A stretch of 64,000 bases of DNA from Talinum fruticosum. Lineage: Eukaryota > Streptophyta > Magnoliopsida > Caryophyllales > Talinaceae. Position 1 is the stretch's first letter. Each line of letters opens with the position of its first letter. Made by a program: the position numbers and the translations under genes. This document shows positions 33,041-63,026 of the stretch, piece after piece. The notes below the pieces were generated by a model. The model was not told the DNA's origin. It worked only from the letters and a program-made list of their open reading frames with translations, and searched no databases. The DNA lies in assembly GCA_021018815.1 (NCBI GenBank), contig JAITYX010000088.1, positions 2,021,501 to 2,085,500 on the forward strand. The letters are read 5' to 3'.

Positions 33041-33047
33041 TGACATG

Positions 33048-34524: not shown

Positions 34525-34525
34525 A

Positions 34526-34538
34526 TTGGTATCGGAAC
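34526..34538 (+). other. Primer-binding site, copy C
   Basis: TTGGTATCGGAAC. It resembles the complement of the initiator tRNA-Met 3' end (TGGTATCAGAGC) with CGG in place of CAG. Confidence 0.55.
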
Positions 34539-34585
34539 CTAGCCTTTCACAAAAGGATCTATCCAACCAAAGGTCTTAAGATCAG

Positions 34586-36067: not shown

Positions 36068-38010
36068 CAACTTGGAGTGATGAAGAGTCGGATGACGATG
36101 ATGACACTCAAGATGAATCAAACTGTCTCATGGCCTTAATGGACTCGTAAGCTGAAACATTTGACATTGAGAAAACTAATCCTCGGGAGATAATCAACTA
36201 TTTCCTCAAATTCTAAGCAAGATTTAGCTAGATATATTTTTACCTTAGAGGAAAAGTCCAATTCCGATTCCTCTTTATTCAAAGAAAAACCAGAGTCTTT
36301 AAAATCTGAGAACAAGGTTTTGAAAACTAATTTGGAAAAACTAAGGCTGAGCATTAGGGTACCTAAGACTAGTTCTCAAGATAATGAGACCGAGTCGAGT
36401 GACTAAAACCGAGAATGAGCAACCAAAGATAAAAGTCACATACTCGAAGATTTTGGTTTAAAACTCGATCAAGGTCGAAAAACCTTGGCCTACTTCTTGG
36501 TTGTCGGCGTGGTTCTTTTAAAAAGAGTGACTTGGTTGCAACTCGAAACAATTGTTTTTTAAAAATGGTTCTCGAAAAATTTATTTTAGAAAAGCCGAGC
36601 ATGGTCCTATTCATTCAAAGAAGGAAATGACTCGAGCACCAAACTGTTAACCAAATGAAGTTTCCTTAGTTTGTTAATAAAAAAAGTCCTTCACAACAAG
36701 GAGACTTAATTTCCTAAGAAGAAGGGGCAGAATCAAACCAAGCCCAAAATAATTCAAATTTGGGTTCCCAAAAGTGCTCTTCCTCAAAAGCCGACCTCGT
36801 AAGGACAGTTGCTTGGGTTTGTAAAAGGAAGTGAAAAGGGTTAGTGCGTTTGTGTTTTGCAGGCACCTCGGACAAAAAAGAAAGATCATTGATATCTCGA
36901 TAGTAGTCATTCTAGACATATGTCTTGAGATTCAAGACTCTTTTCTGAGTTAGAAAAGATGAAAGGAGGAAAGGTCCCCTTTGGAGACAACAACAAGGGA
37001 AAGATTGTAGGTATTGGAAGAGTTGGTCACAGGTGACAACATAGTAAGCCCATTCCACCTAGTCAAAGGGCTCAAATACAATCTTCCGAGTATCTCCCTG
37101 CCGTATGACAAAGGACAAGAGGTAGGGTTCACTCACACCAATTACTCCATAAATGATGCTACTTCAAATAAGATAAAGCTATATGGTGTGAGGTCATGTA
37201 ACACTTGTATCATTTCTCTTACTTATTCTACTAAGAACTTCTCATGTTTAAAAGCCTTTGTCAACAATGAATCGTGGACATAGCATCGTAGGTTAGGCCT
37301 TATTAGCATGCTTACTATTAAGAAATTAGCTTCATAAGGGTTAGTCTGAGGAGTATGTAAGTGCAATTTTAAGAAAGATAAAATTTGTGATGCATTTACA
37401 AAAGGAAAACAAGTCAGATCTTCATTTAAGCCATTCAAATTGTTTCCACCTCAAAAATGCTTGAATTAATTCATATGAATTTATGTGGTGAAATCCCGTT
37501 AAAAGCTTAGAAGGTAAATCATGTGTCCTTGTTATTGTTGACGATTTTTCAAGATTTACCTGGGTTTGTTTTCGGACAAACAAGAATGAAGCCTCGAAGA
37601 GTTCACCAAGGTCTGCAGGAAAATTCAAGTTGAGTCCGAGACTCGGATTAGAAAGATAAGAATTGACCATGGAAGGGAGTTTAACTACTTAAAATTTATT
37701 GATTTATGTGACAAGAATGGTATCTCCCACAACTTCTCTATGCCCGAATGCCTTAACAAAACGGAGTGGTGGAAAGAAAGAACATAACTCCGGAAGACAT
37801 TGAAAAGATAATAATGATTGAAAACCGTCTTCCTTACTATTTTTAGGTTGAGGTAGTGAACATAACAAATTGCACACTCAACGAGATGCGTCATTTGACC
37901 ATACTCGAAGAAAACACCCCGTGAGCTATACAAGGGAAAGAAGCCTAACATCTCATACTTCAAGCCTTTCAAGTGTAAGTTCTTTATGCATAACAATGGT
38001 AAGGATCATT
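36068..38010 (+). pseudogene. Copia copy C: gag C-terminus, protease, integrase
   Basis: Gag tail WSDEESDDDDDTQDESNCLMAL near 36070-36140 and an acidic block. Protease SHSRHMS near 36905 (DSG degraded); GLKYNLPSISLPYDKGQEVGFT at 37065-37130; the integrase zinc finger HRRLGLISMLTIKKLAS near 37280-37335; IHMNLCGEIPLKSL near 37470; and the IRIDHGREFNYL-like second Asp block near 37655. The CKFFMHNNGKDHLTKFDARSNEGIF region is near 37970-38045. Numerous frameshifts. Confidence 0.7.
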
Positions 38011-38445
38011 TGACTAAGTTTGATGCTAGGTCAAACGAAGGTATATTTCTTGGTTACTCCTTACATAGTAAAACTTACTCGCATTTGCAACAAAAAGACT
38101 AATAAAGTGGAAGAAAGTATCCAAATTATTTTTGATGAAGTTGACAATGGCAGGTTAAGCGAATCTACTTTCTCGGATTTCAAGTTGAACAGAGATGTTG
38201 ATGACATAGTTGAAACCGAGCAATCGGAATTATTTTAGCATTTGCATCTAGCATGAACATTAAGTTATATCAAATGGATGTGAAATGTGCATTTTTAAAT
38301 GGTTATATTTAAGAGGAAGTTTATGTGGAGCAACCCTCTGGATTTGAAAACTCTCATTTTACAAATCATGTTTTTAAATTACAAAAGGTTTTATACGGTT
38401 TAAAACAAGATCCAAGAGCTTGGTATTTATATGTTTTCCTCCTTT
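38011..38445 (+). pseudogene. Copia copy C: integrase tail and RT fragment, truncated
   Basis: 38020-38238 carries EGIFLGYSLHSK-like text and NKVEESIQIIFDEVDN. RT text follows: LYQMDVKCAFLNGYI near 38265-38310, [33 protein letters not shown] near 38365-38430. A large RT N-terminal part is missing between them, and the element ends abruptly near 38445. Confidence 0.75.
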
Positions 38446-41417
38446 TGATAAAAGGAATTTGTAGGAACCACAACCTGGGTGGACCCCGACCGAGCTTCCC
38501 TATGAGCCCCTTTTTTTGGCGTTTTCTTGGCATTTTGGAAAATGGGGTTTGAAAAGGGTTTTGAAAGATGAATTTTAGAATATAGGGACTGATCTCTTAT
38601 TAAGAGTTATGAATTTTATTAAGTCAAATTAATAGATTAAATCGGATTGAATTGATTGGCGTTTTATTAATCATTTTATTTTATAAATAATTTTCAGAAT
38701 TCCCGAGATATTATCTCCTAATTAAAGAAATAAAAGAAATTAGAAATTAGGTTCCGTCCCGAAGCTTTAGGGACAGATCGGTGTGAAAACACCGGTCCGG
38801 ACCCAAGCCTCAACCGCCGACCACCCGATCCGCACACGACGGTTGCCGGCGCCGGCCAAGGGCCCAGGCTAAAACAGTTAGCCTTAGCCTATGGCCTAGC
38901 GAGATAGATCCAAATTCTTTTTTTTTTTTTTTTTTACCATACAACCGAGAAAATAACCGAGGTGCACTTTTAATCAGAATAATGCAAAAAAAGGGAGTCG
39001 CCAATCAACTTTTAGGAAGAAAACTAATAAAAACAAAAGCTTGCTCTTCCAATCTTAGTATAGGAAAACTAAGAATAAAAGAGGCTAAAATTGACTCCAT
39101 CGGTCTTTGAGCCGAGAATCGGATCCGGGGAAGGGTAGGAAATGTAGAGAAAACTCTTTCATTCCGCTCGTCCGAAGACATCCATTACTAGTTTGAGTAG
39201 TATAGTAAAATAATGTGCTAAACACAAACATAAAACATGCTAAACGATAATAAAGAGCAACCAAATGGAATTAAAGGAAAGTAATAAAGAAAGCGATAAA
39301 GATAGAAAAGCGAAAAACTTAAAAATTACATTTGGCGGGGAGGAATTGAAAAAGCGATTATGTCTCTTTTATCCACAATACGGAAAGTGATAAATAAAAC
39401 ATAAATTAAATAACTCGTTTAAAGGCTGAACGATTGTCCTCGGGTTGTCCCACCTTGCTGATCCGAATCTCTTGATGCGACAACGACAAATCAAAGAAAG
39501 GGCTTGTTTTTGTGGATTATGTAAAAGGTGAATGTGTAAGTAGTAGGAAGGATCGGTTGAATAGGCGCCTAGAGATCGGAATAACCGAATATTCTTTAGC
39601 TTTTCAATGGTGGTAAGTAGAGAAAAGATGAATATTTGATATTAATTTCGGCAGAGTAACGTTTAGGTAGGAGTGCTCCGGTTAGCTTTCCGTAGCATTA
39701 CGCGTAGGAGAAAGCCATATGGGAATGAGAGACAAGGCTCTCTCTATATAGGGAGAGACCTAGGTCACAAATGACCTAGGGTTTACACTCGGCCAACCGT
39801 CCAAGCAGCTGCAAACAAACCGGGTCAAAATCTCATAAGATTACAAGGATAGAACCGGATAAAGTCGTCCAAGCAGCCACATGCATGGGGTTTCATGCCC
39901 TAGCGTGTTTCCAAGGGATTCTCTAATCCAAAGTGCGGGGTTTCATTGCAGGTACCAACCACGACGTAGTTTTGAGGGGAAAATTTTGTAGTCTCGTGTG
40001 GATTGTTTTATGGAGCTTAAAAGCAGCACTTTGATGCTCGTGATCATGAAATGCAACATTTTAATGTCGTCTTCGGGCCTTCAGCTCCTTGCTTTGCCAC
40101 TAACAACAAGTGACTCATGATAAGGCATAAACTATAATTTGTACAAAGATTAAGCATAAGTATAGACTATAGTCCGGTAAACTACGACAACGACACTTAA
40201 CCCTTGATACCCCAACTAAGTTGTCGCTGCGAGCCTCTAAGTCCTTAACGGACCTTTGCTTCAAATCTTCAACATCTTTACATAAAACAAAATAAGAAAT
40301 CATTTTCGAAATGTGAGCCAAAGCTCGTAATGCCCTAGACCTACTTTCCACTGCGCTAATCATCGGCTAGCGGTTTATTTAGACTAAAATCGGTGATTAC
40401 GGGTTTGGGGCGTTACATCCAATTCTTGGATCGTCCAAAAGAAAGGGGATTTTTGGATCGACCCAAGGCAAAAGGCTATTTATTTAGCGCTAGGGGTTCT
40501 TTGTGGTTTATCGGCTCTTATCGCACCAATCAAACACGGTTCGAAATCCAAATCCTCAAACAGGACTCGGATTTCATCATCGCGCTAACAAAATAAAATA
40601 AAGAATTAAACAGATAAGAGATGACACTTTTTAGGTGTCTATAGTTAGGCCCCGCTTTGACCGAGTCTAAAAAGACGAATGGTCAAAGTAGACATTAAAG
40701 GGTACTTGCCGCGATTTTTTATGTTAGTTATTGTGTAATACTTGGAATTGGTTGTAATCGAACCTGGACTCCAAAATGGGGTCGGGGATTGTGACGTATG
40801 CGTTCTAAAGTCCGGTAAGAGGGTCCTAAGTTTTGCTTGATCAAAGCCTCGAAGCTTGGTATATTTTGATGTTGAAACTTCAATTGTTCTTTGATCCGAA
40901 GCCCGACTAAATGATCTGCTGTACTAACATACTTGTTCGTGTATAATCAAACTGACGAAAGTTTGGTAAGAGTGTTTTACCCGAATAATTTAGCCGCAAA
41001 TTGATCGAAAAATTTGATCCGAAAAGTTGATTGGTGGGTCCGAAAACTCCCACCTACATACACGAGAGACCAAGGAGTCACATGTTACGGTTGCTTGAGA
41101 CTCCACAAGCTAGGTGGACAGAGCTAGGGCTACAAAGTTGTCACCGATGGGGCACCACGGCACCTTCCGGCCGGCGTCGGCCAGCCTTTGGCGAGCCTGG
41201 CCGCAGCGTGCTTCGTTGGATTCCCTTGGTCTCCCACTACTTGCTTGACTCTTGTCTCATATGGTTGGCCGACTTGACCGAGTTTGCCTACAAAAGGCGT
41301 GCTTGGTGTGTTCATTTTGCACACTTAATCCTCTTCTTGCTCTTGCATTCTTCTTATGTTCTCTTGATTTGCTTCTTCTTGAAAACTCGTTGGTTCTCAA
41401 AGTCTATTCTTCCAAAA
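38446..41417. repeat. Unclassified repeat-like non-coding DNA
   Basis: AT-rich sequence without supported genes. Features seen: a poly-T tract at 38919-38935; AAAAAAAGGGAGTCGCCAA near 38986, a motif common in plant gypsy elements; and GACACTTTTTAGGTGTCTA near 40623 followed by GGCCCCGCTTTGACC, resembling LTR/leader text of a different gypsy family. Element boundaries could not be set. Short open frames (38810-39004, 40115-40363, 40393-40596, 41031-41510) have no recognisable domains. Confidence 0.4.
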
Positions 41418-41576
41418 TGTCTAGGAGAAAGGCGCATCCTGCGAGGGAGGTCTAGAGTCGACAAACTTGTGCAAGACAACTTCCCGGAACGAGGAATGGC
41501 GTCTTCGTAACGAGTGGAACTCAAGTGACCTCTTAGTGGAGGCCGAGAGCCATGTTTCTTCACTTGCTATCAATCC
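41418..41576 (+). pseudogene. Plant-mobile-domain gene, N-terminal fragment (interrupted)
   Basis: ATG at 41418 gives MSRRKAHPAREV; a second frame from 41467 reads RNEEWRLRNEWNSSDLLVEA and SSLAINPS up to the copia D insertion. The downstream part resumes at 52320 and contains a plant mobile domain. The join at the TTCGG duplication is certain at DNA level, but the reading frame is only plausible. Expression as a gene is unlikely with 10.7 kb inserted, unless the insert is spliced out. Confidence 0.45.
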
Positions 41577-41581
41577 TTCGG
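41577..41581. repeat. Target-site duplication, left (copia D)
   Basis: TTCGG immediately before the LTR start TGAAGACTC; identical to 52315-52319. Confidence 0.9.
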
Positions 41582-42362
41582 TGAAGACTCGATACATCGC
41601 TCTATATATTTCGAGTCATGCAAAAAGAATCGGGTATAACGATGTCATTCATATAGTGTTTTGATTCCAAGGCATTCTCTGTGTCTTAGAAACTTACTTG
41701 AGTGAAATAGTATCTTTTCTATGCGATTCGGCCTTCACTTATCTCTTTAATCGCTTTTCGATTAGCGACTCGGAAAACTTGTTCTTTATTCCGAGTCCAC
41801 TCTCTCTCAGAATCGACTTATGATTATTTACTCTATTGATTGCAAAGTCAGCATTCATAGTTCTTTTCGTGCTTAGTCTACATCAAGTGTTTCCCACTCG
41901 ATATTTGTTGATAGAACTTGATTCATTGCTTAAGACTAAGTCTTATGGAATTCCGAGTATCATGGATATTAGACTCGAAAGTTCCATTTCTTTTCGACTC
42001 GGATAATCTGTTTGTTAATTATCATGATTATTTTTATTATCCGTGTCTAACCTTGGACCAAAGTATTTTATACTTTGAGAACCGAAAGGTGTTTTACTTT
42101 TGTAGGTTATTCAATCGAGGATATCTTTTCAAATTACAAAAGTAGCCGGCTTGAACATCAAATCACCAGCGAGATATAGCTTTTCACCATCCCTCGCTCT
42201 AGTCCCGGAAGATTGTGTCGGAAGCCATGCGCTTCCATATCCGGAAAATTAGAAGGTCAAGCTTAACGATGGTTTTCACCACACTTTTCAAGACACAACC
42301 GATGGTTTTGGGACTTCCAAGAGAGTTAAACCGTTGTCCAACGACCATATTTTCAACGGATA

Positions 42363-42381
42363 CTTTCGAGTGACTCGAAAG
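42363..42381. promoter_or_regulatory. LTR palindrome upstream of TATA
   Basis: Perfect inverted repeat with 9-bp arms around a single G. The homologous site in the antisense LTR at 5509-5531 is also palindromic with 11-bp arms, so the symmetry is kept although the sequence differs. Confidence 0.5.
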
Positions 42382-42451
42382 CCCTTATCAACGGTCACGA
42401 GAGGACTCTCGGTCAGCGAGATGAAGATAACGGCTACTCTGCCTGGTTATC

Positions 42452-42459
42452 TATAAATA
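42452..42459 (+). promoter_or_regulatory. Copia D 5' LTR TATA box
   Basis: TATAAATA in the GGTTATCTATAAATAGAAG block shared by both LTRs and the other copies. Confidence 0.6.
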
Positions 42460-43100
42460 GAAGCCACTTCACAAGACTTGAAGAAAGCGAAACATACCGT
42501 CAATACTCCAACTTGAACAAAGTTATTGTATTTACTTTCAATCTTCAACTTACAACTCCCACTCTGTAATTCATTACTTTCCGAGTTGTAAGGTCTTGTA
42601 CTCGATTACAAACACTTCTTACATTCTTTGTAAGGTCCCTTGACTAAGCTGTAAGGGTTAACTCAGCTTAGTTGTCCCTAGCTGTAAGGGTTATCTCGAC
42701 TAGGAAGTACTAGATCGAGATAAGGGAACTTCGAGTCTAGGAAAACTTGTATAGAGTTGTCCAAGGGAGCAACTCGGGTTCCGTCAAGTTCACGGTATTT
42801 TGTGGACTCAAAATAGTGGATTTGACTTCGTGTCTGGATTGACACGGGCCGTGGTTTTCTGCCCCAGGAGGGTTTCCACGTAAATTCTCCGTGTTCTAGT
42901 TACGAGTTCATTCTAGACTCGAGACAGACCTGCTGAACGTGTTTACTTTGATTCATTACATTACGAGTCCAATTTTTTTTGACTCGAAAGCTGTCTTTGA
43001 TTCTACTCTGTCAAAAGGGTGTGTGCTTTCACAAAGAATTTTTCATCACCCTATTCACCCCCTCTAGGGTGACTCGAGACTCTCCCGAGCAAACCTTCAA

Positions 43101-43113
43101 TTGGTATCGAGCC
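43101..43113 (+). other. Primer-binding site, copia D
   Basis: TTGGTATCGAGCC one base after the LTR end. The initiator tRNA-Met complement would read TGGTATCAGAGCC, so the difference is a lost A at a CAG. Confidence 0.75.
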
Positions 43114-43158
43114 TAGCCTTTCGAAAGGATCTAACGAGTCCAAAAGTTTAAAGATTAG

Positions 43159-44900
43159 ATGGCTCGGAACACCGGAGAGTTCGACGAAGGTAGATCTTCC
43201 AACAGGGCACCAAAATTCAAAGGTTCAAATTTCGGTCACTTGGAAGAAGCCGATGGAATGTTTCCTTATGGATCACGACGAAGAAGTATGGGAAATCATA
43301 CAACAAGGGAACTACATCCCAACGAAGACAGATGAATTCAGAATTCTTCCAAAGACAAAGGCTGAGTTCACGTCGCGAGGCGAGAAGTTCGAAAGAACTT
43401 CAAAGCCATGAACATCCTCATGTGCGCCATAAGCTCGGAAGAATATAATCGAGTCTCTGCCTGTGACTCTGCTAAAGAAGTGTGGGACACTCTGGTCAAC
43501 ACCTACGAAGGTACAAGTCGGGTGAGACAAGCGAAGATCGGCTAGTATCTTCACAAATATGAGCTTTTTAAAATGGAGCCGAAGAGAACATTACTCGGAT
43601 GTTCATACGCTTCACCGAGATCACCAACAATCTCAAATCTTTGGGAAAGAAAATCTCCCATGAAGAAATGTGCCGGAAAATTCTCGAAGCCTACCCAGAA
43701 ACGATGGGGTCCGAAGGTAGCTGCCATAGAAGAGGCTCGGAACCTCTCAATCTTGAAGCCGGACGAGCTCATAGGAAAGCTTCGACCCATGAGATACATC
43801 CGGAAGAAGAAGATGCTTGAGGGTACTTCCAAAAAGAACATCGCTCTTAAAGCCTCGGAATCCAAAGAAGCAAGTCCAAGCTCCTCGACTCGAGAAGATG
43901 ATCCCATGGCACTCATTGCAAGAGGCTTCAAGAGAATGATGAAGCACAAAAGATGGGATAAAAGGCCAAAAGAAGAATTCTACAAAAAGGACAAGAGAGA
44001 CGAGAAAAGGTAAGTTTTCTTCACCCACAAAGTTATCCTTGTCTAAAAATTCTGGATGTTTTGAATGTGGCAGCAAAGACCACATAGTCAAGGACTGTCC
44101 AAAACGAAGAAGGGACAGGGAAGAAGAAAAAGGCCATGATGGCAACGTGGAGTGATGAGGATTCATCCGAAGAGGACGAAGACTCGGATGACTCAAAGTG
44201 TCCGATGGCGATCATCGACTCGAAGCGAAAAGGAGTCGGATTCGGACACGGACTCGAACAATGAGGAAACTAATCCTCAAGAGGTAATAAACTATTTCCT
44301 CAAATTCTCCAAAGTTGATTTAGCTAAATACATCTTTACTTTGGAAGAAAAGTCCAATTCGATTCTTCTCATTTCAAGGAACAACTTGAGTCAATCACTT
44401 CGAGAGTACCTTTTTAAAAAATGAATTGGAAAAGCTGAGATCGACACTCGAGAGAACTCAAGACAAGTGCTCATACTAATGAGGCCGAGTCCGAGTTACT
44501 CGAAAAAGAAAATGAGCAAGCGAAACGAAGCTCATTGAGTCTCAAAATCTGGTTTTGAAGTTTTCTCAAGGACAGAAGAACCTTGATATGCTCTTAGGAT
44601 CACAATGTGTCTCATTTCGAAAAGAAGGTCTTGGTTTCAACAAAGAGGAAGAATCTAATTCTTACTCGGAATTGTTCAAAAGGATTCCGAAGCTGTTAAG
44701 TTCAAGAAGGTTGAGCATGGTCCCATTCATAAAAATGAAAGGAGGACTAAACCCGGACCTATCTACAAAAAGAAACCATTTTCTCCTGTTTCAAAAGGAA
44801 AGGTTTTTAAAAGGAAAGAGACACGGACTCGGTTCTACGAAAGAAGAAGACTCGGAATCGGACTAAACCCAAAGTCATTCAAATCCGGGTTCGAAGCACC
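43159..44900 (+). pseudogene. Copia D gag (frameshifted as read)
   Basis: ATG at 43159 (MARNTGEFDEGRSSN). Order: EVWEIIQQGNYIP near 43288-43320; SAKEVWDTLVNTYEG near 43470-43512; FIRFTEITNNLKSLGKKI near 43602; GPKVAAIEEARNLSILKPDELIGKL near 43710-43785; RGFKRMMKHKRWDKRP near 43922; zinc knuckle CFECGSKDHIVKDC at 44058-44099 (perfect CX2CX4HX4C); acidic ESDSDTDSNNEETNPQEVINYFLKFSK tail; and a long coiled-coil-like segment to about 44900. Forms the virus-like particle. At least six frame changes, several at CG dinucleotides. Confidence 0.85.
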
Positions 44901-44929
44901 TTCTTCCTCGGAAAAGGACCACGGTAAGA

Positions 44930-45400
44930 AATGTTACTTGGGTTCGTTAGAGGAAGTGAGAAGGGTTAGATTTTCTCTGTTTTGCGGAGTCACTCGAAAA
45001 AGATCAAAGGACACCGGTACTGGACAGCGGATGTTCTCGACATATGTCGGGTGACCAAGGACTCTTTTCGAGTCGGAGTCATATAAAGGAGGAAAGGTGA
45101 CCTTTGGTGATGACAGCAAGGGCAAGATAGTGGGCATTGGGAAGATTGGTAATGGAAACAATCCGGTGAGCCCAGTCTACCCGGTCAAAGGACTAAAATA
45201 CAACCTACTTAGCATCTCCCGACTTTGTGACAAAGGTCAAGAGGTAAGATTCACTCAATCCAAGTGCTACATCACGGATGAGACCACCAAAGAGGTAAAG
45301 CTCTCGGGTAAGAGATCGGGTAATACCTACATCATCCCTCTTTCGACCCAAGTCGGAACTTATCATGTTTAAAAGCATATCTTCAAGATGATTCTTAGAT
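44930..45400 (+). pseudogene. Copia D protease region
   Basis: LDSGCSRHMSGDQGLF, with active-site DSG at 45023-45031, then TFGDDSKGKIVGIGKIG and VKGLKYNLLSISRLCDKGQEVRFT (45097-45372). This is the standard copia aspartic protease and the start of the GAG-pre-integrase domain. One frame change lies between the active site and 45097. Confidence 0.85.
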
Positions 45401-46480
45401 TTGGCATCGTAGATTAGGTCATATTAGCATGCATACTATCAAAAAGCTTGCATCTCTTGGTCCGGTTAGAGGATTACCTAAGCGTGCTTTTGAGAAGGAT
45501 AAAGTATGTGGAGCATGCACCAAAGGGAAACAAGTCGGATCCTCATTCAAATCTCTCGAAGACAGTTTCCACATCCAACGTGCTTGAATTACTACACATG
45601 GACTTATGTGGTGAAATCCTCGTAAAGAGTCTCGGAGGTAAATCTTACATACTTGTTATTATTGATGATTTTTCAAGATTTACCGGGTGTGTTTTTCGAA
45701 GCATAAGAATGAGGCCTTCAAGGAGTTCAGCAAGCTCCGTAGAAAGATTCAAGTTGAGTCTCGGACTCAGATTCAAAAGATTCGAACCGACCATGGAAGG
45801 GAGTTCGACTACTCGGAATTCTCGAGTTTTGTGACAAGAATGGAATTTCTCACAACTTCTCAGCACCCGAACTCCTCAACGGAATGGAGTAGTTGAGAGA
45901 AAGAACAGAACCCTTGAAGAAATAGCAAGGACGATGATGATTGAACACAACTTGCCTTACTATTATCGGGCGGAGGCGATAAACACAGCCAACTACACTC
46001 TCAATCGACGCCTCATCGGACCCATTACGAAGAAAACACCTTATGAGCTCTACAAAGGAAGGAAGCCAAATATTTCCTATTTCGAGATCTTTCGGATGTA
46101 AGTGCTTTGTCCACAACAACGGTAAGGATCATCGACCAAGTTTGATGCTCGGTCGAGACGAAGGAATTTTTCTAGGTTACTCTACTCATAGCAAAGCTTA
46201 TCGTATATTCAACAAGAGAACTAACAAAGTGGAAGAAAGTATCCACGTAGTGTTTGATGAGCTTGAACAGGGAAAACCAAGTGAATCTTCTTACTCGGAA
46301 CCGAAGCTCGGAAAGGATGATGACGAAGATGAGTCTATAAAGACTCGAAGGAGACCACTCGAACGAGGAAGCTCGAGAATGAGACAACTCCGGAGGTCGC
46401 TCCGAAGCGAGCAAGTCAATGAAGAGGATCACACGGAACAAGCTTCGAAGAACAATCAATTCAACCATCAAACCTGGTGA
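45401..46480 (+). pseudogene. Copia D integrase
   Basis: HHCC zinc finger HRRLGHISMHTIKKLAS...CGACTKGKQ (45403-45530), then the catalytic core: ELLHMDLCGE (first Asp, near 45602), RTDHGREFDYSEF (second Asp, near 45790), and ERKNRTLEE (Glu, near 45897). The C-terminal GCKCFVHNNGKDH, DEGIFLGYSTHSKAYRIFNKRTNKVEESIHVVFDE block follows (46100-46260). Frame changes near 45555, 45690, 45890 and 46095. Confidence 0.85.
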
Positions 46481-47450
46481 ATCAAAGAACTGGTAAAGCA
46501 TTCAAATTTACTTCCAGGCATCCCCAAGAAAACATTATTTCGATATCAACGAGTGGAGTAAGAACTCGCTCTTCTCTTCATAATCTATGTGCATTCACTG
46601 CATTCATTTCTCTGATCGAACCCAAAAATGCACTAGAGGCCCTTAATGAACCCGAATGGGTAGAGGCCATGCAAGAAGAGCTAAATCAATTCGAGAGAAA
46701 CCAAGTCCGGACTCGACCAACCGACCCTCCGACCACCCGAGTTATAGGAACCAAATGGGTTTTCAAAAACAAAGCTGGATGAGGGTGGAATAGTTGTCGA
46801 AACAAGGCTAGACTTGTAGCTCGGGGTTACAATCAAGAAGAAGGAATTGATTGTGGGGAAACCTTTGCACCGAGTAGCAGAATTGAAGCCATTAGAATAC
46901 TTGTTGGCATTTGCATCCTGCATGCATATTAAATTATATCAAATGGATGTTAAGTGTGCCTTTCTCAACGGTCTTATTGAAGAAGAGGTCTATGTCGAGC
47001 GACCTCCTGGTTTTGAAAACTCGGAATTTCCAAATCATGTTTTCAAACTTCAAAAGGCTCTCTATGGTCTTAAACAAGCCCCTAGAGCTTGGTATGAAAG
47101 AGCGAGCGACTTCTCGGTTCAAAATGATTTCAAAAGAGGTCGGATCGACAAGACTCTATTCATAAAGACCAAAGGGAAAGATTTTCTCATTGTTCAAATA
47201 TATGTTGATGATATTATTTTCGGTGCTACTAATGAATTTACGTGCGAGAATTTTACGAGTTGATGAGCCAAGAGTTCCAAATGAGCATGATGGGAGAACT
47301 CAATTTCTTCCTTGGGCTGCAAATCAAACAAAACAAAGATGGAATCTTTGTCCATCAATCAAAGTACACCAAGGAACTGCTGAAGAAATACAAACTTCAA
47401 GATGCAAAGCACGCATCTACTCCTATGAGCGAGCGAGTATAAAACTTGAC
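46481..47450 (+). pseudogene. Copia D reverse transcriptase
   Basis: ALNEPEWVEAMQEELNQFERNQV near 46630-46700, VIGTKWVFKNK, KARLVARGYNQEEGIDCGETFAP near 46805-46870, LLAFASCMHIKLYQMDVKCAFLNG (first catalytic Asp near 46945), [23 protein letters not shown] near 47034-47101, and the catalytic YVDD at 47201-47212, followed by FYELMSQEFQMSMMGELNFFLGLQI (47250-47325). Full set of copia RT motifs with four or more frame changes. Confidence 0.9.
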
Positions 47451-48147
47451 TCGGATGAGACGAGTAAAGCGAGTAGATCGAAACTCTATCGAAGTATGAT
47501 TGGATCTCTGCTATATCTTACTTCGAGCGGACCGGACATAATGTTCGGTGTTTGCTTATGTGCACGATTTCAAGCTAATCCAAAAGAATCACATCTCATC
47601 TGCGGTGAAGAGAATATTCGAGATATCTTGCAGGCACTCGGAATCTAGGAGTCGTGGTACTCCGAGAGACTCGAAGCGAGTCCGACTGGGTACTCGGACG
47701 CGGACTACGCGAGGATACAAAGTAGATCGAAAGAGCACATCCGGAGCTTGCCGGTTTCAGGTCAATCCTAATATCCTGGCACTCAAAGAAGCAAAACTTC
47801 AGTAGCTCTATCAACTGCGGAAGTTGAATATATTGCCGTTGGAGCTTGTTGCGCTCGGATTCTCTGGATAAAACAACACTTGAAGGATCTCGGATTATCT
47901 CTCAACTCGGTCCCAATCAAGTGTGACAATCAAAGCGCAATCCAGTATCACTAAGAATCCTGTCCAGCACTCAAAAACAAAGCATATTGAAGTCGAGTAT
48001 CATTTCTTACGCGATCACTCGGAAAAGGGTGATATTTTACTTGAATTCATTCCGACTAATCTTCAATTAGCTGATATCTTTACTAAGCCACTTGGTGAAG
48101 ATCAATTACATTTTATTCGGAATGAGCTTGGCATGTTAAATGCTTAG
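47451..48147 (+). pseudogene. Copia D RNase H, end of pol
   Basis: YRSMIGSLLYLTSSGPDIMFGVCLCARFQANPKESH (47490-47600), VGYSDADYAG-like text near 47690-47715, KVDRKSTSGAC near 47719, TAEVEYIAVGACCARILWIKQ near 47815-47873, then KTKHIEVEYHFLRDHSEKGDILLEFIPTNLQLADIFTKPLGEDQLHFIRNELGML, with the stop at 48145-48147. Several frame changes, including CGAG where CAG is expected at 47619 and 47710. Confidence 0.88.
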
Positions 48148-48780
48148 TTTCGTGTTATGATTCTTGCATTTTTACGTGCTATGTGCTTTAGTTGTCAATA
48201 ACCATTGGTTCGATTGATCATGTGATCTTGGGCTGATAGTTATTTACGTGTTTCGAGTCACTCGGAAACTTTTCGAAGTCAAACTCGATCGTAGAGAAAA
48301 ATTTGGACATCAAATTTTACGAAGCTATCTCTAGAAACAGTGGAGAGTTTCGGATTATATTTTCAAACTCTTTTCTCTCTCTTTCTCGAGCGCTGCGATC
48401 GGATCTTAACCGCAGATTTCAAACCGTTGTTATCTCAACCGTTGAAGCGTAAGCTGTCACACCGGGCATTAATGATCGATGGACGGGTAAGACGGAACGG
48501 AGTCACTTAACGGATAGTGAACGGGCGCGCGTATTCTCTATAAATAACGTCTATTCATCTTTCTCTCGGTATTCTCAAACTCCTTCCCTCTCAAACGAAA
48601 ACCCTCTCGCGGAAAGTTGGCTACGTGAACAGTGTTTCCTTGATCGTCTGCAAGTGTTGAAGAAGCTCTCTCTCTCTCTCGTAAGTTTTCGATTGCTCTC
48701 TTCTCATTTTCGTTTTTCTTCTCTTCTACACCTCCTTCTCTTTCCTCTTCTCTCGAAAAGTTTCATCTTTTCATCTCTCA
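48148..48780 (+). other. Copia D post-pol spacer
   Basis: Non-coding spacer between pol and the extra ORF. It contains a TATA-like CTATAAATAACG near 48538 and a CT-rich stretch (48668-48680 and after). An internal promoter for the extra ORF is possible but not shown. Confidence 0.5.
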
Positions 48781-50384
48781 AAATGCCTAAAAGAGGAAAC
48801 CACCCCGACTTTCAGGTTTCTTCATCCTCAAAGAAACCTCGCTCCAACAAGCCGGAAAGCTCAACCCCCTCTAAACCCATTGTCACCCGAGCATCTTACG
48901 CTTGGACGACAAGTTCTTCCCAACAACCAAATTCTCCTGGTTGTCCCATATTCAAACCACCGGAGTCTACCATTTCTTGTGTTTCAGCGAGTTCATCTAT
49001 CCCGAACTCGTTTACGAGTTCTATACTCACCTCTCTCACTCTGAAAATGTTCTAACCTCAAGGGTTCGAACATTACCGTTCAGTATCAACACCTCTCTCC
49101 TTCACAGACTGTTCAAAGTTTCTTCTCTCTTCTTGAACAGCAACCCTATCCCCTTCACTCGAAGTCGTCGACGACTTCTTTGAAAAGTACGCCAAAGAAT
49201 TCCCCGGGTCCGGAAAGAACTTTTACGTGACTCGGTTGAAGTCGAAGCCGAGGCTTAGTGTTTCCTGCTGATGAGAACCTTCTTCTCACAGACATTCTAG
49301 CAAGGAGAACCCCAACTCCAAGCACCTCAAAGCTCTCTTGATATCCCGGAGGGATACGAAGTCGACCTCTTCCCCTCCATCATTGAGCAAATGGCCGCTG
49401 TGCCAGCTCGACTCCAAACCAAGAAGAACACCTCCCTTCCTTTCGGTGCTCTTCTCACCCTTGTCTTCAAACAATTTCAAGTTCCTCTTCCCTCCGACCC
49501 TAACGCGGTGTACGAGGCGGCCATTGTGGTCGGTAAAAGGAACTCCAGGGTACGGATACCGGAAACTAACCCCGGTGTGCGGGTTCACAACTCGGAGCTG
49601 AGGCCTCCTTCTCCACCTCGGACTTAGAAATCAACCCCTCTCCCTTTTCCCTCTTCACCTGGTGGTGCCTCCACCTCCGAGTGCTTCCAAATCTCTCTCC
49701 GCCCTCTTGTCTCCTGTCTTCTTGGACAAGATCACCTCGGTGTCTTCGATTTCGGAGACATGCTCGGAGGTTTCAAGTCTGTCCTTCGAGGTCGACCATC
49801 AACCAAAAGACCAGTCGAGTCCCAGATCCAGAGAGCGGCGACTCTCGTTCTTGAGATGAGAGAGCTGGTTAAGGAGCGAAGGAGCTGGCTGAGCTCCTCG
49901 AGAGAGACGGTCCAAGGCGGCTCGGGACCCGGAAGACTCGGACCCATCCGAGACGTCTTCAAGCCCGAGCCCGACCTCCTCGGAGAGCGAGGAAGCCGAG
50001 GAAGCGAGAGGAAGAAGCAGCGAGATGCGGCGGAGGACGCCGAGGAACCTGCAGTGAGGCGGCTCCTTCGGGCCAAGGGAAGAAGAGGCCGTGGCAGCTG
50101 TCGAGGACAACCTGCTCCCCAAGTTCAAGTTGCTTGTACTCGGCTCGAGACAGCGATCCGAGTGGGTCGAAGATTTCGCTCCTCCAGCGAGTCGGCCAGA
50201 GCAGACCCCTCCAGGCCCCGAGGTCCCAAGGGAAGAACCCCTCGATCCACTTTCTCAGGGTCGACCACTCGGAGCTGAGCCCCTGCGAGTGTTCCGGTTC
50301 TCCCTTCGCCGCGCTCAAGCACATCGTCAAGGTCTTATCGGCGCGGCGCACCTCCGCCTCCACTCGAAATCCCCTCCCTCCTAG
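48781..50384 (+). pseudogene. Copia D extra 3' ORF (env-like position, SIRE type)
   Basis: Coding-like sequence starting at ATG 48783 (MPKRGNHPDFQVSSSSKKPRS). It goes on through KFSWLSHIQTTGVYHF..FSEFIYPELVYEFYTHLSHSE (second frame, 48902-49060), a SAKEFPGSGKNFYV-like stretch near 49185-49230, IPEGYEVDLFPSIIEQMAAVPARLQTKKN-like text near 49340-49430, and YEAAIVVGKRNSRVRIPETNPGVRV (49512-49590). The C-terminal half is charged and helical (49760-50384) with RSWLSS, GSERKKQRDAAEDAEEP and REEPLDPLSQ. No transmembrane segment, signal peptide or fusion peptide is evident, so 'env-like' is only positional. At least four frame changes. Confidence 0.65.
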
Positions 50385-50783
50385 TTGGAGCCATGCACTG
50401 AGTCACGATTCCTCGGTGCCTCCAGAATTTCGCTTTTCAAAATTTTATTTTGTCCAGGACAATTTACGTGTATTATTTGTACTTTTCTCCCTTCTTTTTG
50501 TTTCTTGTTTTTGTTGAAAGGCAAGGGGAGAAATGTAGTCGAAGCTCGGTTGTCTTGTCTAGGGGAGTTCTTTCCGCCCTTGTAATATAATTTTTTACTG
50601 AATGCATTTCATTATTAATTTCGAGTTCTTTCTTTTACGAGTAAATAAGTTCAAGCATACTTTATTTTGCTCGATATATTGTATATTGCTCTGGTCAATA
50701 TGTTTTACTTTTATTCGAACTACTCAGAATCAACCTATTTCCCTCTAACAAAGTTTACGTTTAAGTATGGAATGCCTTTCATC

Positions 50784-50795
50784 AAAAGGGGAGAT
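50784..50795 (+). other. Polypurine tract, copia D
   Basis: AAAAGGGGAGAT immediately before the 3' LTR start TGAAGACTCGG. Confidence 0.8.
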
Positions 50796-52314
50796 TGAAG
50801 ACTCGGACATCTGCTCTATATATTTACGAGTCATGCAAAAAGAATCGGGTATAACGATGTCATTCATATAGTGTTTTGATTCCAAGGCATTCTCTGTGTC
50901 TTAGAAACTTACTTGAGTGAAATAGTATCTTTTCTATGCGATTCGGCCTTCACTTATCTCTTTAATCGCTTTTCGGTTAGCGACTCGGAAAACTTGTTCT
51001 TTATTACGAGTCCACTCTCTCTCAGAATCGACTTATGATTATTTACTCTATTGATTGCAAAGTCGGCATTCATAGTTCTTTTCGTGCTTAGTCTACATCA
51101 AGTGTTTCCCACTCGATATTTGTTGATAGAACTTGATTCATTGCTTAAGACTAAGTCTTATGGAATTCCGAGTATCATGGATATTAGACTCGGAAAGTTC
51201 CATTTCTTTTCGACTCGGATAATCTGTTTGTTAATTATCATGATTATTTTTATTATCTCGTGTCTAACCTTGGACCAAAGTATTTTATACTTTGAGAACC
51301 GAAGGTGTTTTACTTTTGTAGGTTATTCAATCGAGGATATCTTTTCAAATTACAAAAGTAGCCGGCTTCGAACATCAAATCACCAGCAGATATAGCTTTT
51401 CACCATCCCTGCTCTAGTCCCGGAAGATTGTGTCGGAAGTCATGCGCTTCCATATCCGGAAAATTAGAAGGTCAAGCTTAACGATGGTTTTCACCACACT
51501 TTTCAAGACACAACCGATGGTTTTGGGACTTCCAAGAGAGTTAAACCGTTGTCCAACGACCATATTTTCAACGGATACTTTCGAGTGACTCGGAAAGCCC
51601 TTATCAACGGTCACGAGAGGACTCTCGGTCAGCGAGATGAAGATAACGGCTACTCTGCACGGTTATCTATAAATAGAAGCCACTTCACAAGACTTGAAGA
51701 AAGCGAAACATACTGTCAATACTCCAACTTGAACAAAGTTATTGTATTTACTTTCAATCTTCAACTTACAACTCCCACTCTGTAATTCATTACTTTCGAG
51801 TTGTAAGGTCTTGTACTCGATTACAAACACTTCTTACATTCTTTGTAAGGTCCCTTAACTAAGTCGTAAGGGTTAACTCAACTTAGTTGTCCCTAGGCTG
51901 TAAGGGTTATCTCAGCTAGGAAGTACTAGATCGAGATAAGGGAACTTCGAGTCTAGGAAAACTTGTATAGAGTTGTCCAAGGGAGCAACTCGGGTTACTG
52001 TCAAGTTCACGGTATTTTGTGGACTCAAAATAGTGGATTTGACTTCGTGTCTGGATTGACACGGGCCGTGGTTTTCTGCCCCGGGAGGGTTTCCACGTAA
52101 ATTCTCCGTGTTCTAGTTCCGAGTTCATTCTAGACTCGAGACAGACCTGCTGAACGTGTTTACTACGATTCATTACATTACGAGTCCAATTTTTTGACTC
52201 GTAAAGCTGTCTTTGATTCTACTCGTCAAAAGGGTGTGTGCTTTCACAAAGAATTTTTCATCACCCTATTCACCCCCTCTAGGGTGACTCGGACTCTCCC
52301 CGAGCAAACCTTCA
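50796..52314 (+). repeat. Copia D 3' LTR
   Basis: 1519 bp; aligns end to end with 41582-43099. Differences are few and mostly 1-nt changes next to CG (for example CAGATA at 51387 against CGAGATA at 42170). TATA at 51668-51675. Confidence 0.93.
51668..51675 (+). promoter_or_regulatory. Copia D 3' LTR TATA box
   Basis: TATAAATA in the same block as in the 5' LTR. Confidence 0.55.
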
Positions 52315-52319
52315 TTCGG
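52315..52319. repeat. Target-site duplication, right (copia D)
   Basis: TTCGG directly after the LTR end ACCTTCA; identical to 41577-41581. Confidence 0.9.
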
Positions 52320-54585
52320 TAATCTAATTGGTTTACATTTCTTCCTTTGCTCATTGAGAGTAGCTTTTCAACTAAAAATCTGGTTGGATTTTTGTCTTGC
52401 GAAAGGCTCAATTCGGAGTAGTGGAGCTATCCCCAAATTCATGAAGACATGTAGGAGGATGAACCTTCCTCTTCGGAATGTCATGCATAGTACCGGGTTT
52501 GGTCCTCTCTACCTTGCCTTGAACCACCTTACTCGACAAAAGGGAGAGGGATCCTATCAGGACCATTAATGAGCGTTTTTGGGATACCACCAACACTTTT
52601 CACCTTCCCTTTGGGGAAATGACTATAACGCCTTTTGATTTTGTCATTTTATCCGATTTGGGCTATTCAGGAGAACCTCTAGCCTATGACCGGAACTTGT
52701 ATAAAAATTGTGACTATCTTCGTCACCTTTTTGGCCCCGTGGCTGATAGGTTTCCTAAGCACAATTTCTTCAAGCATACCATTCTTTTTAGGCCTTTGAG
52801 GATGTTAGGTTTTGGCCTCAACACTCTCCTCAACAACGAGTCCGTATTATGTTTGCTCTTCTCTTGAGTACGATTCTTTTCTCCGATCAAGCTGTTAAGG
52901 TTCATGTTCACTATTTGGTGAACTTAGTGGACCTCCATAAAATAAAGGAGCTCAACTAGGGTGCTCCTGCATATACTTGCCTCATTAGGCGCCTCCATGC
53001 CGAGTGTGCGACACACAAGACCGGAGTTAGATTCAACCAGCTATTTACTATTATATGGTGCTGTGGAAGATTGTTGAGGTATGCTCAAATTCTCCTTTTC
53101 TCCAAAGTATTTTTTATCTTATGTGGATAAAAAACTTACTCAATCGTGATCATGCAGCCATGGTTATACGAATTTTCCCACATCTTTCTCCCGGTTCAAC
53201 AAATCTTTTGCATTTCTAGCCTTTGTATCATGGGCTAAGGTCTATTTTCAATGTCATAATATCCATGGGATAGACTTCTTGAGATTAGCTTTTAACCGTG
53301 TAACCTCGGTATGCCTCTTTAATCTCAAAATTTGCCTCAAAATATGCTTTAGAGAACTTTTATCACACTGCTTAGCTTGCTGCCCTTGCCCACAACCTAT
53401 GGGACTGCCTGTGGGCTTACCTGCGGTGGACTCCAACCCCGATTATGCACTGTTTTTTCATCCATTTTCTTGCTACCTTTCATTCTTGTTAGCTTCTTTC
53501 TTGACAAACATTGAATATAGGCTATCTTTAATCCTTGGGCCCAACTCCAACTCCCTCCAAGTGTCATCCTTGCACGGGAATTAAGCGAAATGAGGATCTT
53601 GTTTGAAGGTACCTTTGGGTTTTGTTGGTATCTTAGGGAGAGGGTCACTCCTCAAATCCGGGTCAACACATGGGCTCCGCTTGTTCCGGTTGATCCTCCC
53701 TAGACCATTTCTACCTTCACTCCCTTCCTCCTAATGAGCAAGCAACTGCTGTTGTGGGGTATCCTTATACCTTATTCTAAAATTTTCATACATCCTACGC
53801 TTACTATGCGGTACGAATTATGACTCAACTACTGAGTTCTCACCTTTTATCTTATCATAATTAATTTTCTTGCGTGGGAATTAACTTCATCTTTTGGTAG
53901 CTCACACTGGCCGACATCTATATTCTAAGCCTTGATGTGGATGTTACTCTTCTTGGGGACCACCTCGTTACGTAAGAATTCCCGAAATCTTGGAGGAAGA
54001 ATGTGTTGGGCATCCTTTCCTTAGAAATTGGCGAGGGGTAAGAGTTTTGAGCTTTTCACTTTTAGTTGTATGCTAAAAGTATGTTTGACTAACACCATAG
54101 AATTGATTTTTATAGTAAGACGGAGAACAATCCCAAACTATGTCCATCAATCTTCAATCTGCTCTCCAGGGAATCCAAAACTCCCTTAATGGGCAATCTT
54201 TCCTATACTTCCGGGTCAGTTCCTATTAGTGGAGTGCTAATTTTATTAAGCTTTTAGTGAGTGCTAATTTCCCTTTCATTCTTGTAGTGTTGTCGATCTA
54301 GAGCACCTCTATTGGGGAGTCTTCCTGGCGGACTCGGGGCACGTGACACATCAATCCAACCAACAAACTCTTTCTAATAGTACTACTAGACAAGGTTCTT
54401 CTAGACGTTCTTTATGGCGCACGCATCATCGGAGTGCTTCCGAGGCAGGACCTAGCACTTCCGGGCCTAGTGCTTCCGATGCGGGGCCTAGCTTTTCGGA
54501 GGAGAGCTTAGATATCTTGCCCCTGCAGGCTTTCGATCGTCAAGGAAATCCTCTTTACTTCCCTCGATCTTCGTACGGTGGCTAA
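52320..54585 (+). pseudogene. Plant mobile domain (PMD, aminotransferase-like) coding sequence, interrupted by copia D
   Basis: Domain text: RMNLPLRNVMHSTGFGPLYLALN near 52450-52520, then a DPIRTINERFWDTTNTFHLPFGEMTITPFDFVIL run (52552-52650, one extra base near 52550), then LGYSGEPLAYDRNLYKN. 'ERFWDTTNTFHLPFGEMTITPFDF' is diagnostic of plant PMD proteins (MAIN/MAIL1 and transposon-associated relatives). A plausible 79-bp GT-AG intron lies at 53079-53157, then WLYEYFPHLSPGS-like text. The C-terminus at 54343-54585 has a Ser/Gly/Pro repeat (EAGPSTSGPSASDAGPS). Frames shift several times. Either a captured gene or a transposon passenger. Confidence 0.65.
53079..53157 (+). other. Predicted intron in PMD sequence
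   Basis: GTATGC at the left, an AT-rich body, ATCATGCAG at the right. Removal joins coding text ending KIVE to PWLYE. Not proven. Confidence 0.4.
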
Positions 54586-55144
54586 CCCATGAAGCTTCGC
54601 AATCTTGGCACCACGGAAGTAGTTACTATCAAGGGGATGAAGGTGGTTGATTCTTCACATCCGTCTTGGAGGACTTCGGCAACTATATTTTTGCTAACGA
54701 TTCTAATGGCGATGATTAGAGGATTCCTTGCCGTTTCCGCCGTTGATGATTAGGGAGTCCATTGTTAATATTTTCTTTGTAATGAGGACTCTTATGCAAA
54801 GGGATGAATGCAAGATGACTTAATTCTAAGAAATGCGTTCTTTTATTTAATATGATGCATAAAAGCTAGGGAAAATTACAAAGACGAATCGAAAAAAATA
54901 CACTAGCCCCCATTCCCCTAAAAGAAAATATCAAAACGTGCTGCATGCAACAGAGGTAGAAAATAATAAGGTGCAAGGAGTTCTCGGGCCGAAGAAAACC
55001 GCGAAACGGGCCAACCAAGGTGAAATCCGGGCGCTAGTGAAGTAGGCAATTGTGGAGGTACAATAGGACTCTAAAAGCTCCGAAAGCTCCTATAAATAGG
55101 ATCCACTCTAGTGCTTAAAAAAGTGCCTAAAGCAAAAAAACCTT
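54586..55144. other. Spacer after PMD sequence
   Basis: Probably the 3' UTR and intergenic DNA. A possible AATATGATGC polyadenylation context lies near 54850. CTATAAATAGGATCC at 55091-55105 is a TATA-like element about 100 bp upstream of the next coding-like segment. Confidence 0.35.
55091..55098 (+). promoter_or_regulatory. TATA-like element
   Basis: TATAAATA in CTCCTATAAATAGGATCC, upstream of the reading frames at 55145-56790. It could be a gene promoter or part of an unrecognised LTR. Confidence 0.35.
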
Positions 55145-56790
55145 GTGCGAATCAAACTAAGAGCATTTTGTGTCTTCTATTTCCTTCCAAAAGATATGAA
55201 CTTTATGAGTGAGCTAACCCGATGGATGCATGGGATGAGCAACACGGACTTATCCGAGTTATCAAATTATGGGTTGAATGTCCTATTCAGCATTCGTCTA
55301 AGTGAAGGTCTACTAGAATTTCTTAAGGGCTGTTGTGGCCTTTTGGGACCTTCACCATCATGTCTTCGAGTTTACGTGAAAAGGAACGATGCCCCTGCCT
55401 AAAGAATTAGATGCCATACTAGGCACTTATAGGCGTACAAAACGAGTTTTGCCCAAATTATCGGAAAACCTCCACAAGACTTACAAATACCTGCTAAAAC
55501 CGAGCAATATGAATCTAGGGTGGATTCTTAGTGGGAACCAGGTTAATGTGACCAACCTAATGAAACATTATCGAAACATGTATGTCTATTCCGAGGTAAT
55601 CATTATCCCGAGGCGGCGGGCCATCATCACCTGTCCGATAGGTGGATTCCTATTGGTAGGAGGTCACGAGGACATGGCACCGAGTGATGCTACTCGAGTT
55701 TAAATGAACAATTAGAGAATTATTGTTATGTAACTCCCTAATAGTTGTTGAGACAATCATAGGCTTAGACCGGGTCGAAGCAAATTCGGAGGAAGACTTC
55801 TCCGGGAGCCCCCTGTTGTTGCGGTAAGCACATAACAACGAGACGAGACCAAACAATGTGGATTGGTCGGTGGTGTTGGCCACATGGCGGTTGTCCGCGC
55901 TGCCGAGGCTGAAACTCCTCCGGTTCATGCCGAAAGTCTCTAAATTTCGCGCCTTTTCGTTTTTCGCGTTTGTTTTTTATTTTATTTTATTATTTTGCTG
56001 CTGTTGGCCTAAAAATATTGGACTTTGACTATGCATGACACTTATTTTGATTTTGCATCTGTGATGTGTAGATCTAGTTAATGGAGCACCTTAAGCTAAT
56101 TTGGGCTCCTTCGAAAGCCGATGCATACTCGGCGGTTCGGTTCCGCCAGCAAAAATAAGAAGATGTGGCAACCGATCACCCGACTTCTTTGTGGGAGGAG
56201 TACCTCAAGAATCATAGTAAAGATATAGCAGTTTACATAGAGGACTTGAAGGTGTCCTGATTTAGGACTCATACCTTGCAACACCCTTTTATACGCCTAC
56301 TAGGCCTAGAAAGCGGTACCTACTACTTCTCGGACCGTGTGTTGCAGAAGATGGGAAGAGAGAAAATGATTCCCTTGTTAAACCGCATCCGACCTGCTAC
56401 CTTTGAATTGTTCAAAGGGTTTGGTAACTCTACCCGGACAAAATCGTGGCCCGAATATTGGACGAACTCGGCAAAGTTGTTGATACCTCCAAGGAAACCC
56501 GAGTACTTATGTTTTTTCCTATTATCTAGGGTGGATAATAGAAGTAGATCCCCAACGGCATAAGGTATTGATAACCAGAGAGATGGATCCTGAAGAAGCT
56601 GTCCCTACTACTACCATTTTCCAAATTCGTGAAATAAACCCTCGAGTGGCGGAACGCGTTAACCGAAGAGAAACTAAAGCCGAGAGTCGAAGAGAGGAGA
56701 GCCGGCAAAATTAAGGAGCTGAAGGAACACACCCAAGATGATGAAGTTGAGTCTAGTGACCCTAAAGGAAAGAAAGTAAAGATAGACTAG
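55145..56790 (+). pseudogene. Unrecognised coding-like region (three frames)
   Basis: I do not recognise the protein. Segments with coding character: 55145-55402 (MNFMSELTRWMHGMSNTDLSE, LSEGLLEFLKGCCGLLG); 55389-55703 (LDAILGTYRRTKRVLPKLSENLHKTYKYL..., HYRNMYVYSEVIIIPRRRAIITCPIGGF); 56080-56260 (MEHLKLIWAPSKADAYSAVRFRQQ and LWEEYLKNHSKDIAVYIEDLKV); 56276-56563 (GLESGTYYFSDRVLQKMGREKMIPLLNRIRPATFELFKGF); and a charged C-terminus ending near 56788 with KELKEHTQDDEVES and KGKKVK. A TATA-like element precedes it. It may be the N-terminal region of an unfamiliar gypsy polyprotein or a decayed host gene. Confidence 0.35.
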
Positions 56791-57099
56791 GGCTTAGAAA
56801 TTTTAGATAGAACTTACGATACAATAAAAGAGAAGGAGGTATCATATTTTAGGTTTTGCCTCTTTATAACAAATTATTATTATTTTACAAATAGTGTGCT
56901 TGCAATGATTTCTTTTTATTAGCTATGTACTAAGGTAAGTAGTAGGCTTACTATTATTAAATAAAAGTAAGTATTATGCTATACTTTTACGTTTTATCGC
57001 TAACCTAGAGGTAAAAAAATAATTGGACTGCCCTTAGAATAAAGAAACCATCTAATTGGACGGTTAGTAGATCATAGAGTACTAAGGAAGAAAAAGAAA
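56791..57099. other. AT-rich spacer
   Basis: Nothing recognisable. It separates the sense coding-like region from the antisense gypsy pol. Confidence 0.3.
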
Positions 57100-58055
57100 G
57101 AATTCAGCCCGGCCAACCCACCGTTGTCTAAGCGGTGGCCGGCGCCCGCCATAGCTCTGGCCTGGTTGGACCGGGTTTGGCCCACGGCGGAGGGTCGTGC
57201 TAGACTTAATGCTTTGTCAATTGATCCAAATTCGTGTACTAAAAATTTCTTATCCATCCAAATTAGTTAATTTCACCGCCCGTCAGGTAAGATCTAACTA
57301 AGTATAAACGGGCCTTGCCAATTGGGTTTAAATTTCCCTCATGGGTCATGAATAGGCACTTTACTTCCTTAAGGACTAAATCTCCGATTTATAGATTTCA
57401 AGGCTTAACTTTCTTATTAAACGCCCGGATACATGTGCTTGGTATATTTGGACATTTGCGGGCGTTGAGGCTTTTATCATCCAATAGTACTAACTCTTCA
57501 TAGCATGCTCTAGCCCATTCTACTTTTCGAAACTGTCTTTCTACAATTATCCTTAATAAGGGAATGACAATTTTTATTGGAAAGACTGCTTCCATGCCAT
57601 AAAACTAGGGAGTAAGGTGTTGCTCCCGTAGAGGCTCTAATAGATGTAATCCCACAACCCAAAAGGCAGCTTGTCGGGCCAATCCTTATAAGTAGCTCGC
57701 CATCTTCTCCACTATTTTATGAATATTTTTATTGGCGGCTTCCATCTGCTCCGTTGGTCCGAGGACAATAGGGGAAGATTTATGGTGTTGGATCTTGAAC
57801 TTGTCCAACGGATCTGCTACCTCCTTCTCAAAATGACTACCATGGTCACTAATTAGCTCGAGAGGCACCCCATAACGACATATGATATTACGGGTAATAA
57901 ACTTGGCTACTTCTTTTGACGTCAAAGTTATATAGGAGGCCACCTCTACCCATTTTGTGAAGTACTCGATTGCTATTAACACCAATTCATGACCACCGGT
58001 TCCTTTAGGGGTCACGTTGCCAATAATGTTTATTCCCCAAATCGAGAATGGCCGG
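57100..58055 (-). pseudogene. Ty3/gypsy integrase core and C-terminus
   Basis: Antisense: PFSIWGINIIGNVTPKGTGGHELVLIAIEYFTKWVE, SKEVAKFITRNIICRYGVPLELISDHGSHF, EAANKNIHKIVEKM (58050-57686). These are the rve core blocks with the D-D-E positions. Then MEAVFPIKIVIPLLRI (57595-57540), AFNKKVKP, and a C-terminal GDLVLKEV..., HEGNLNPIGKARLY..., LTGGE stretch to about 57240. The N-terminal half lies beyond the copia solo LTR at 59543-60151. Confidence 0.85.
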
Positions 58056-62940: not shown

Positions 62941-62978
62941 TATCGTAATCGTAATTGTAATTGTAATCGTAATCGTAA
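62941..62978. repeat. Hexanucleotide microsatellite
   Basis: About six units of GTAATC/GTAATT inside the 3.7-kb LTR-like element. Confidence 0.75.
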
Positions 62979-63008
62979 ATGGTTGATCCGGGGACGCTCG
63001 GACAACGT

Positions 63009-63024
63009 TGCTCGCTAGCGAGCA
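63009..63024. repeat. 16-bp perfect palindrome
   Basis: TGCTCGCTAGCGAGCA, with no spacer, just upstream of the 27-29-bp tandem array in the LTR-like element. Confidence 0.7.
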
Positions 63025-63026
63025 TT

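Follow-up and report, generated by a model that had tools for sequence, protein, structure and literature searches.

The Dcm methylase of Escherichia coli produces 5-methylcytosine (5mC) in CC(A/T)GG, which is a CHG site, and the true sequence of the ribosomal RNA (rRNA) genes of this bacterium is well known. Wick et al. (2019) placed about 70% of the consensus errors of the then-current Oxford Nanopore Technologies basecallers in Dcm motifs (PMC6591954), a share that implies basecaller models trained without Dcm methylation. The MicroPIPE report describes 401 single-nucleotide polymorphisms common to nanopore assemblies that formed a cluster; A>G made up 187 and T>C 203 of them, 393 were tied to CC(A/T)GG, and the remaining differences were found mainly in rRNA (PMC8235852). 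Chiou et al. (2023) described modification-mediated errors in Listeria that were removed by amplification (PMC10687267), and Ferguson et al. (2022; PMC9749173) and a further report (PMC7501810) name plant methylation as a likely cause of poor basecalls. In the literature searched, with most subscription papers outside its scope, no motif-level account of nanopore errors at plant CHG sites was found. Here we analyse a 64,000-nucleotide stretch of the plant Talinum fruticosum (contig JAITYX010000088.1, positions 2,021,501 to 2,085,500; hereafter the window), in which copia element D and other transposon sequences show recurrent changes of CAG and CTG to CG-containing spellings. With a probability of roughly 0.93, we take these spellings to be a sequencing artefact that arose when native DNA with CHG methylation was read by nanopore and its consensus was left unpolished; the feature exists in the text but very probably has no biological reality.

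The two long terminal repeats (LTRs) of copia D lie between TTCGG flanks at both sides and were aligned from 41582-43106 against 50796-52321, with 97.4% identity over 1,535 columns. The alignment holds 32 difference groups, the last of which (43100/52315) falls just past the LTR ends. CAG/CTG in one copy stood against more CG in the other in 11 groups, 12 had CG in both copies, 3 had CG in one copy, 1 had lost CAG/CTG in some other way and 5 were others. In 100 simulations of random mutation, matched to the observed pair in the number of substitutions and indels, the CAG/CTG-to-CG class averaged 1.2 groups and never exceeded 4, and groups with CG in both copies averaged 3.4; the means of the remaining classes were 3.9 (CG in one copy), 2.9 (CAG/CTG otherwise lost) and 25.7 (others). 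When instances were taken from both copies and those with differing flanks were excluded beforehand, 11 of the 33 CAG/CTG instances differed between the LTRs, 10 of them gaining CG, compared with 19/663 for 14 other trinucleotides, so that errors fall on CAG/CTG and other words are spared. A single LTR site can be spelled with one CG-containing form in one copy and with another in its partner. All four LTR examples given by the sequence-only reading (42170/51387, 42193/51409, 42649/51864 and 42697/51913) were found in the sequence, and its observation of recurrent spelling changes in transposons is confirmed as text by the LTR pair and by the composition of the window.

Across the window, CAG/CTG occurs 684 times against 1,462 expected from a first-order model (ratio 0.47); no other of the 32 trinucleotide pairs is an outlier, the next lowest ratio being 0.78. 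The over-represented words of 5 to 7 bases include CGAGT, CCGAG and TCCGAGT (67 seen, 9.7 expected). The bias is regionally limited. Measured against base composition, with 8401-8490 and 10511-17518 left out, the observed/expected ratios of CAG/CTG and CGAG/CTCG, respectively, were 0.38 and 2.15 at 1-8400, 0.98 and 1.22 in a gene at 8491-10510, 0.62 and 1.18 in the gypsy region (17519-25348), 0.40 and 2.04 at 25349-41581, 0.51 and 3.15 in copia D, and 0.43 and 1.37 at 52322-64000; the 4-kb bin 12001-16000 gave a CAG/CTG ratio of 0.44. Equal CAG depletion in genes, which had been named beforehand as an argument against modified-base errors, was not seen in the window, where the one gene compared reaches 0.98 against 0.38-0.62 elsewhere.

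This gene has nuclear intron maturases of land plants as its named matches, the best, from Amaranthus hypochondriacus, covering 95% of the first open reading frame (ORF) at 66%. Frame shifts appeared at about 9648, at 9800-9815 and at 10102-10117 in all six homologues tested. By eye, one break falls within an A-run and another within a G-run, both looking like shortened homopolymers, and the third lies at TCGGG, where either a CAG or the G-run could be at fault. Long A/T runs are normally commoner in plant DNA; in the window, 859 runs of length 4, 301 of 5, 51 of 6 and 22 of 7 were counted, i.e., they collapse beyond five bases. The collapse affects the gene bin (1 run of length 6 against 22 of length 5) and the transposons alike, with a 6-to-5 ratio of 0.05-0.29 by stretch, and AAAAAA was seen 137 times against 214 expected. 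Judged without a plant control sequence, the homopolymers are too short, as for nanopore consensus. Just upstream of the gene, 8087-8288 holds a 104-base tandem duplication with 93% matches.

E. coli and its Dcm sites provided an outside comparison. Exact CTCG, TCG and CTTG forms at a single Dcm site of the 16S gene were present in 5, 6 and 6 of 5,382 matching records, and the control insertions at a non-Dcm CTG and a GTG were exact in none of the 5,382; near the GTG control, some of those records had another single-base insertion, probably in a G-run. In four E. coli records that carry rRNA errors, no gene was annotated as broken along 20 kb of unique sequence, and rRNA operons were therefore used for the error spectrum. 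From 11 of the 17 misread records, one operon copy each, picked for its one misread Dcm site, was compared with K-12 rrnB after exclusion of that site. Dcm instances were altered in 66/143 cases, 59 of them gaining CG, compared with 39/1,650 non-Dcm CAG/CTG instances, of which 2 gained CG. A control operon from a record not selected for errors had 0/13 Dcm and 3/150 other CAG/CTG instances altered, and outside Dcm sites it showed 11 indel and 14 substitution groups. The commonest altered Dcm spellings were CCGGG (14), CCCGG (12), CCTCGG (7), CGGG (6) and CCGTG (4). Similar CG-containing spellings thus occur at 5mC sites whose true sequence is known. Most of the 11 operons also showed homopolymer-length differences, and operons vary naturally as well. 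As a by-product, altered rRNA at Dcm sites turned up in individual operon copies of published complete E. coli genomes.

Dcm-related nanopore errors as reported (PMC6591954, PMC8235852) resemble those of the window in that 5mC in a C-A/T-G context is read as a CG-containing word through A-to-G and T-to-C changes and indels, and possibly also in that they are missing where the site is unmethylated. They differ in being bacterial with fixed CC/GG flanks, whereas the window is plant DNA with variable flanks in which the CGAG/CTCG insertion form is common. The modification-mediated errors described in Listeria are likewise systematic, persist in the consensus and are tied to an untrained modification, but they are chiefly mismatches and involve other modification types (PMC10687267).

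The reading frames of copia D are broken as well. Its reverse transcriptase piece has a best homologue with 72% over 88% of the piece, yet shows repeated frame changes, and homologue matches switch frame near 46900, 47246-47261, 47430 and 47600-47621. When 46660-47420 was compared with 60 homologues by frame-aware alignment, breaks at 46771, 46796, 46900, 46906, 47246 and 47255 were each set by at least 12 of the 60. The break at 46771 is next to an A-run and to a CTG, and the other five are at or near TCG, CTTG or CGAG spellings. Three CGAG words, at 46871, 47619 and 47710, had been proposed to replace a CAG needed by conserved pol text; all three are present, but at 46871 the homologue matches keep one frame and show a local mismatch, and no homologue match spans 47710. 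A scan of viral contigs for relatives of the reverse transcriptase piece found none.

LTRs and target duplications are identical at insertion, and a primer-binding site matches its tRNA primer. The right end of the gypsy element, set by eye, reads CGAGGCCA at 25351-25358 opposite a left flank of GGCCA, and the target duplication of a copia solo LTR is unequal (GCCGG at 58051, GCCAG at 59543). The three primer-binding sites recognised by eye as copia among 13 TGGTATC matches all read TATCG, where we presume TATCAG to be the expected tRNA-Met match, and TGGTATCAG is absent from both strands of the window. These end, flank and primer-site anomalies are as the sequence-only reading had described them. 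LTRs, target duplications and primer-binding sites thus disagree at CAG, and the change either postdates each insertion or is absent from the DNA. The features concerned are collected in Table 1.

Table 1. Positions in the window of the features discussed, with their strand and the basis on which they were delimited.
Feature	Position	Strand	Basis and remarks
5' LTR of copia element D	41582-43099	+	Ends by eye; aligned with its 3' counterpart
3' LTR of copia element D	50796-52314	+	Ends by eye; 97.4% identity with the 5' copy
Primer-binding site of copia D, TATCG	43102-43113	+	Pattern match
Copia D reverse transcriptase piece plus the stretch after it, with several frame breaks	46660-47653	+	RVT_2 in ORF 46820-47260; homologue frame changes
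Nuclear intron maturase 1-like gene with undepleted CAG/CTG, frame broken three times	8491-10509	+	Homologues, frame matches, composition
Left LTR of gypsy element, hardly affected	17519-19887		94.4% identical to 22985-25348
Right LTR of gypsy element, end CGA before GGCCA	22985-25353		End by eye
Primer-binding site of third copia element, TATCG	31876-31887	-	Pattern match, by eye
Primer-binding site of second copia element, TATCG	34527-34538	+	Pattern match, by eye
Copia solo LTR, flanks GCCGG (58051-58055) and GCCAG (59543-59547)	58051-59547	-	Similarity to other copia LTRs; ends by eye

What was observed directly is the bias in spelling, its confinement to certain regions, the collapse of homopolymers and the similar spellings at E. 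coli Dcm rRNA sites. Modified-base consensus errors of a nanopore-type assembly, the explanation put forward from the letters, are supported by the undepleted gene (one gene), the collapsed A/T runs and the Dcm parallel. The window would then be a nanopore consensus of native plant DNA, uncorrected by methylation-free reads, and the CAG/CTG cytosines of its transposons would carry CHG methylation, which is maintained by CMT3-type methyltransferases. To a basecaller that has met 5mC mostly in front of G, the 5mC of CAG would look like 5mC with a G behind it, and CAG would be written as CGAG, CGG, CGA or CG, and CTG, on the other strand, as CTCG, TCG, CCG or CG. Such an error would be retained in the consensus because the same misread recurs across many reads of the site. 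We infer the methylation of the window sites, the sequencing platform and the reason why the basecaller writes G.

A real mutation process at methylated CHG, e.g., error-prone repair after excision of 5mC in which a base is inserted or exchanged so that CAG becomes CGAG or CGG, would agree with changes that postdate the insertions and occur only where methylation is expected. The same spellings at 5mC in E. coli consensus sequences make a new mutation process unneeded, and one LTR site can hold different CG-containing forms in its two copies. Moreover, such mutations should accumulate with age, but the older gypsy pair (94.4% identity) has 3/108 groups of this type and the younger copia D pair 11/32, a comparison of two pairs only; we consider this process very unlikely. 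Deamination of methylated CHG in plant transposons also depletes CAG/CTG, and its products, TAG, CTA, TTG and CAA, are common in the gypsy pair and in pairs of 75-92% identity. It brings, however, neither inserted bases nor new CG, and ordinary C-to-T decay combined with alignment chance is hardly credible as a full explanation. Random decay was rejected on the copia D simulation, in which 100 runs yielded at most 4 CAG/CTG-to-CG groups against the 11 observed. The contrast between gene and transposons could alternatively reflect short-read polishing of nanopore errors, which would fix unique DNA and leave repeats, rather than methylation. Residual rRNA-repeat errors do persist in bacteria after short-read polishing according to the MicroPIPE report (PMC8235852), and the unbroken 20-kb unique stretches of the four error-carrying E. 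coli records fit this as well. The maturase gene, however, retains its three frame breaks and an A/T collapse as strong as elsewhere, yet has normal CAG/CTG, and with such homopolymer-type errors it does not look polished by short reads. Polishing as the cause of the contrast is disfavoured on these grounds and appears improbable.

Several observations weigh against attributing the spellings to nanopore misreads of methylated CHG. Two of the three repeat pairs classified showed no clear CAG/CTG-to-CG excess, i.e., the gypsy LTRs (3/108 groups, simulated mean 1.3) and the pair 1-617/5583-4971 (3/48, simulated 1.5); the gypsy region may have a lower level of CHG methylation. Frequent replacements of CAG/CTG in the pairs of 75-92% identity are CAA, TAG, TTG and CTA, and true deamination probably accounts for part of the CAG/CTG shortage. 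Changes of CAT/ATG to CG forms are also common in these more diverged pairs. CGAG forms are rare in E. coli (4/66; CCGAG 3, CCGAGG 1) and common in the window, the flanking bases being different, and the platform and Dcm state of the E. coli records are inferred from their error pattern.

At the scale of single kilobases, the gene has 28 and 23 CAG/CTG against 4 and 6 CGAG/CTCG (kb 10 and 11), whereas copia D has 72 against 104 (kb 43-48). Near-normal CAG/CTG was also observed at 16001-18000 (20 and 18 against 3 and 6 CGAG/CTCG in kb 17 and 18), which may be another weakly CHG-methylated stretch. The CGAG/CTCG ratio separates kb 10-11 and kb 17-18 from copia D, and there is an even chance that in nanopore-only plant assemblies the local proportion of CGAG/CTCG to CAG/CTG serves as a readout of CHG methylation without raw signal. 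Elsewhere in the window, tandem arrays were noted at 1253-1861 (90-base unit, 6.8 copies) and 63023-63178 (27-base unit, 5.6 copies).

As biology, the changed spellings bring nothing new. In an assembly of this kind, transposons would show spurious frame breaks, their primer-binding sites would be changed and their target duplications would no longer agree; LTR divergence would be inflated, hence insertion ages would appear too old. Transposon dating and annotation, or claims of a CHG-directed mutation process, that are based on nanopore-only plant assemblies could therefore go astray.

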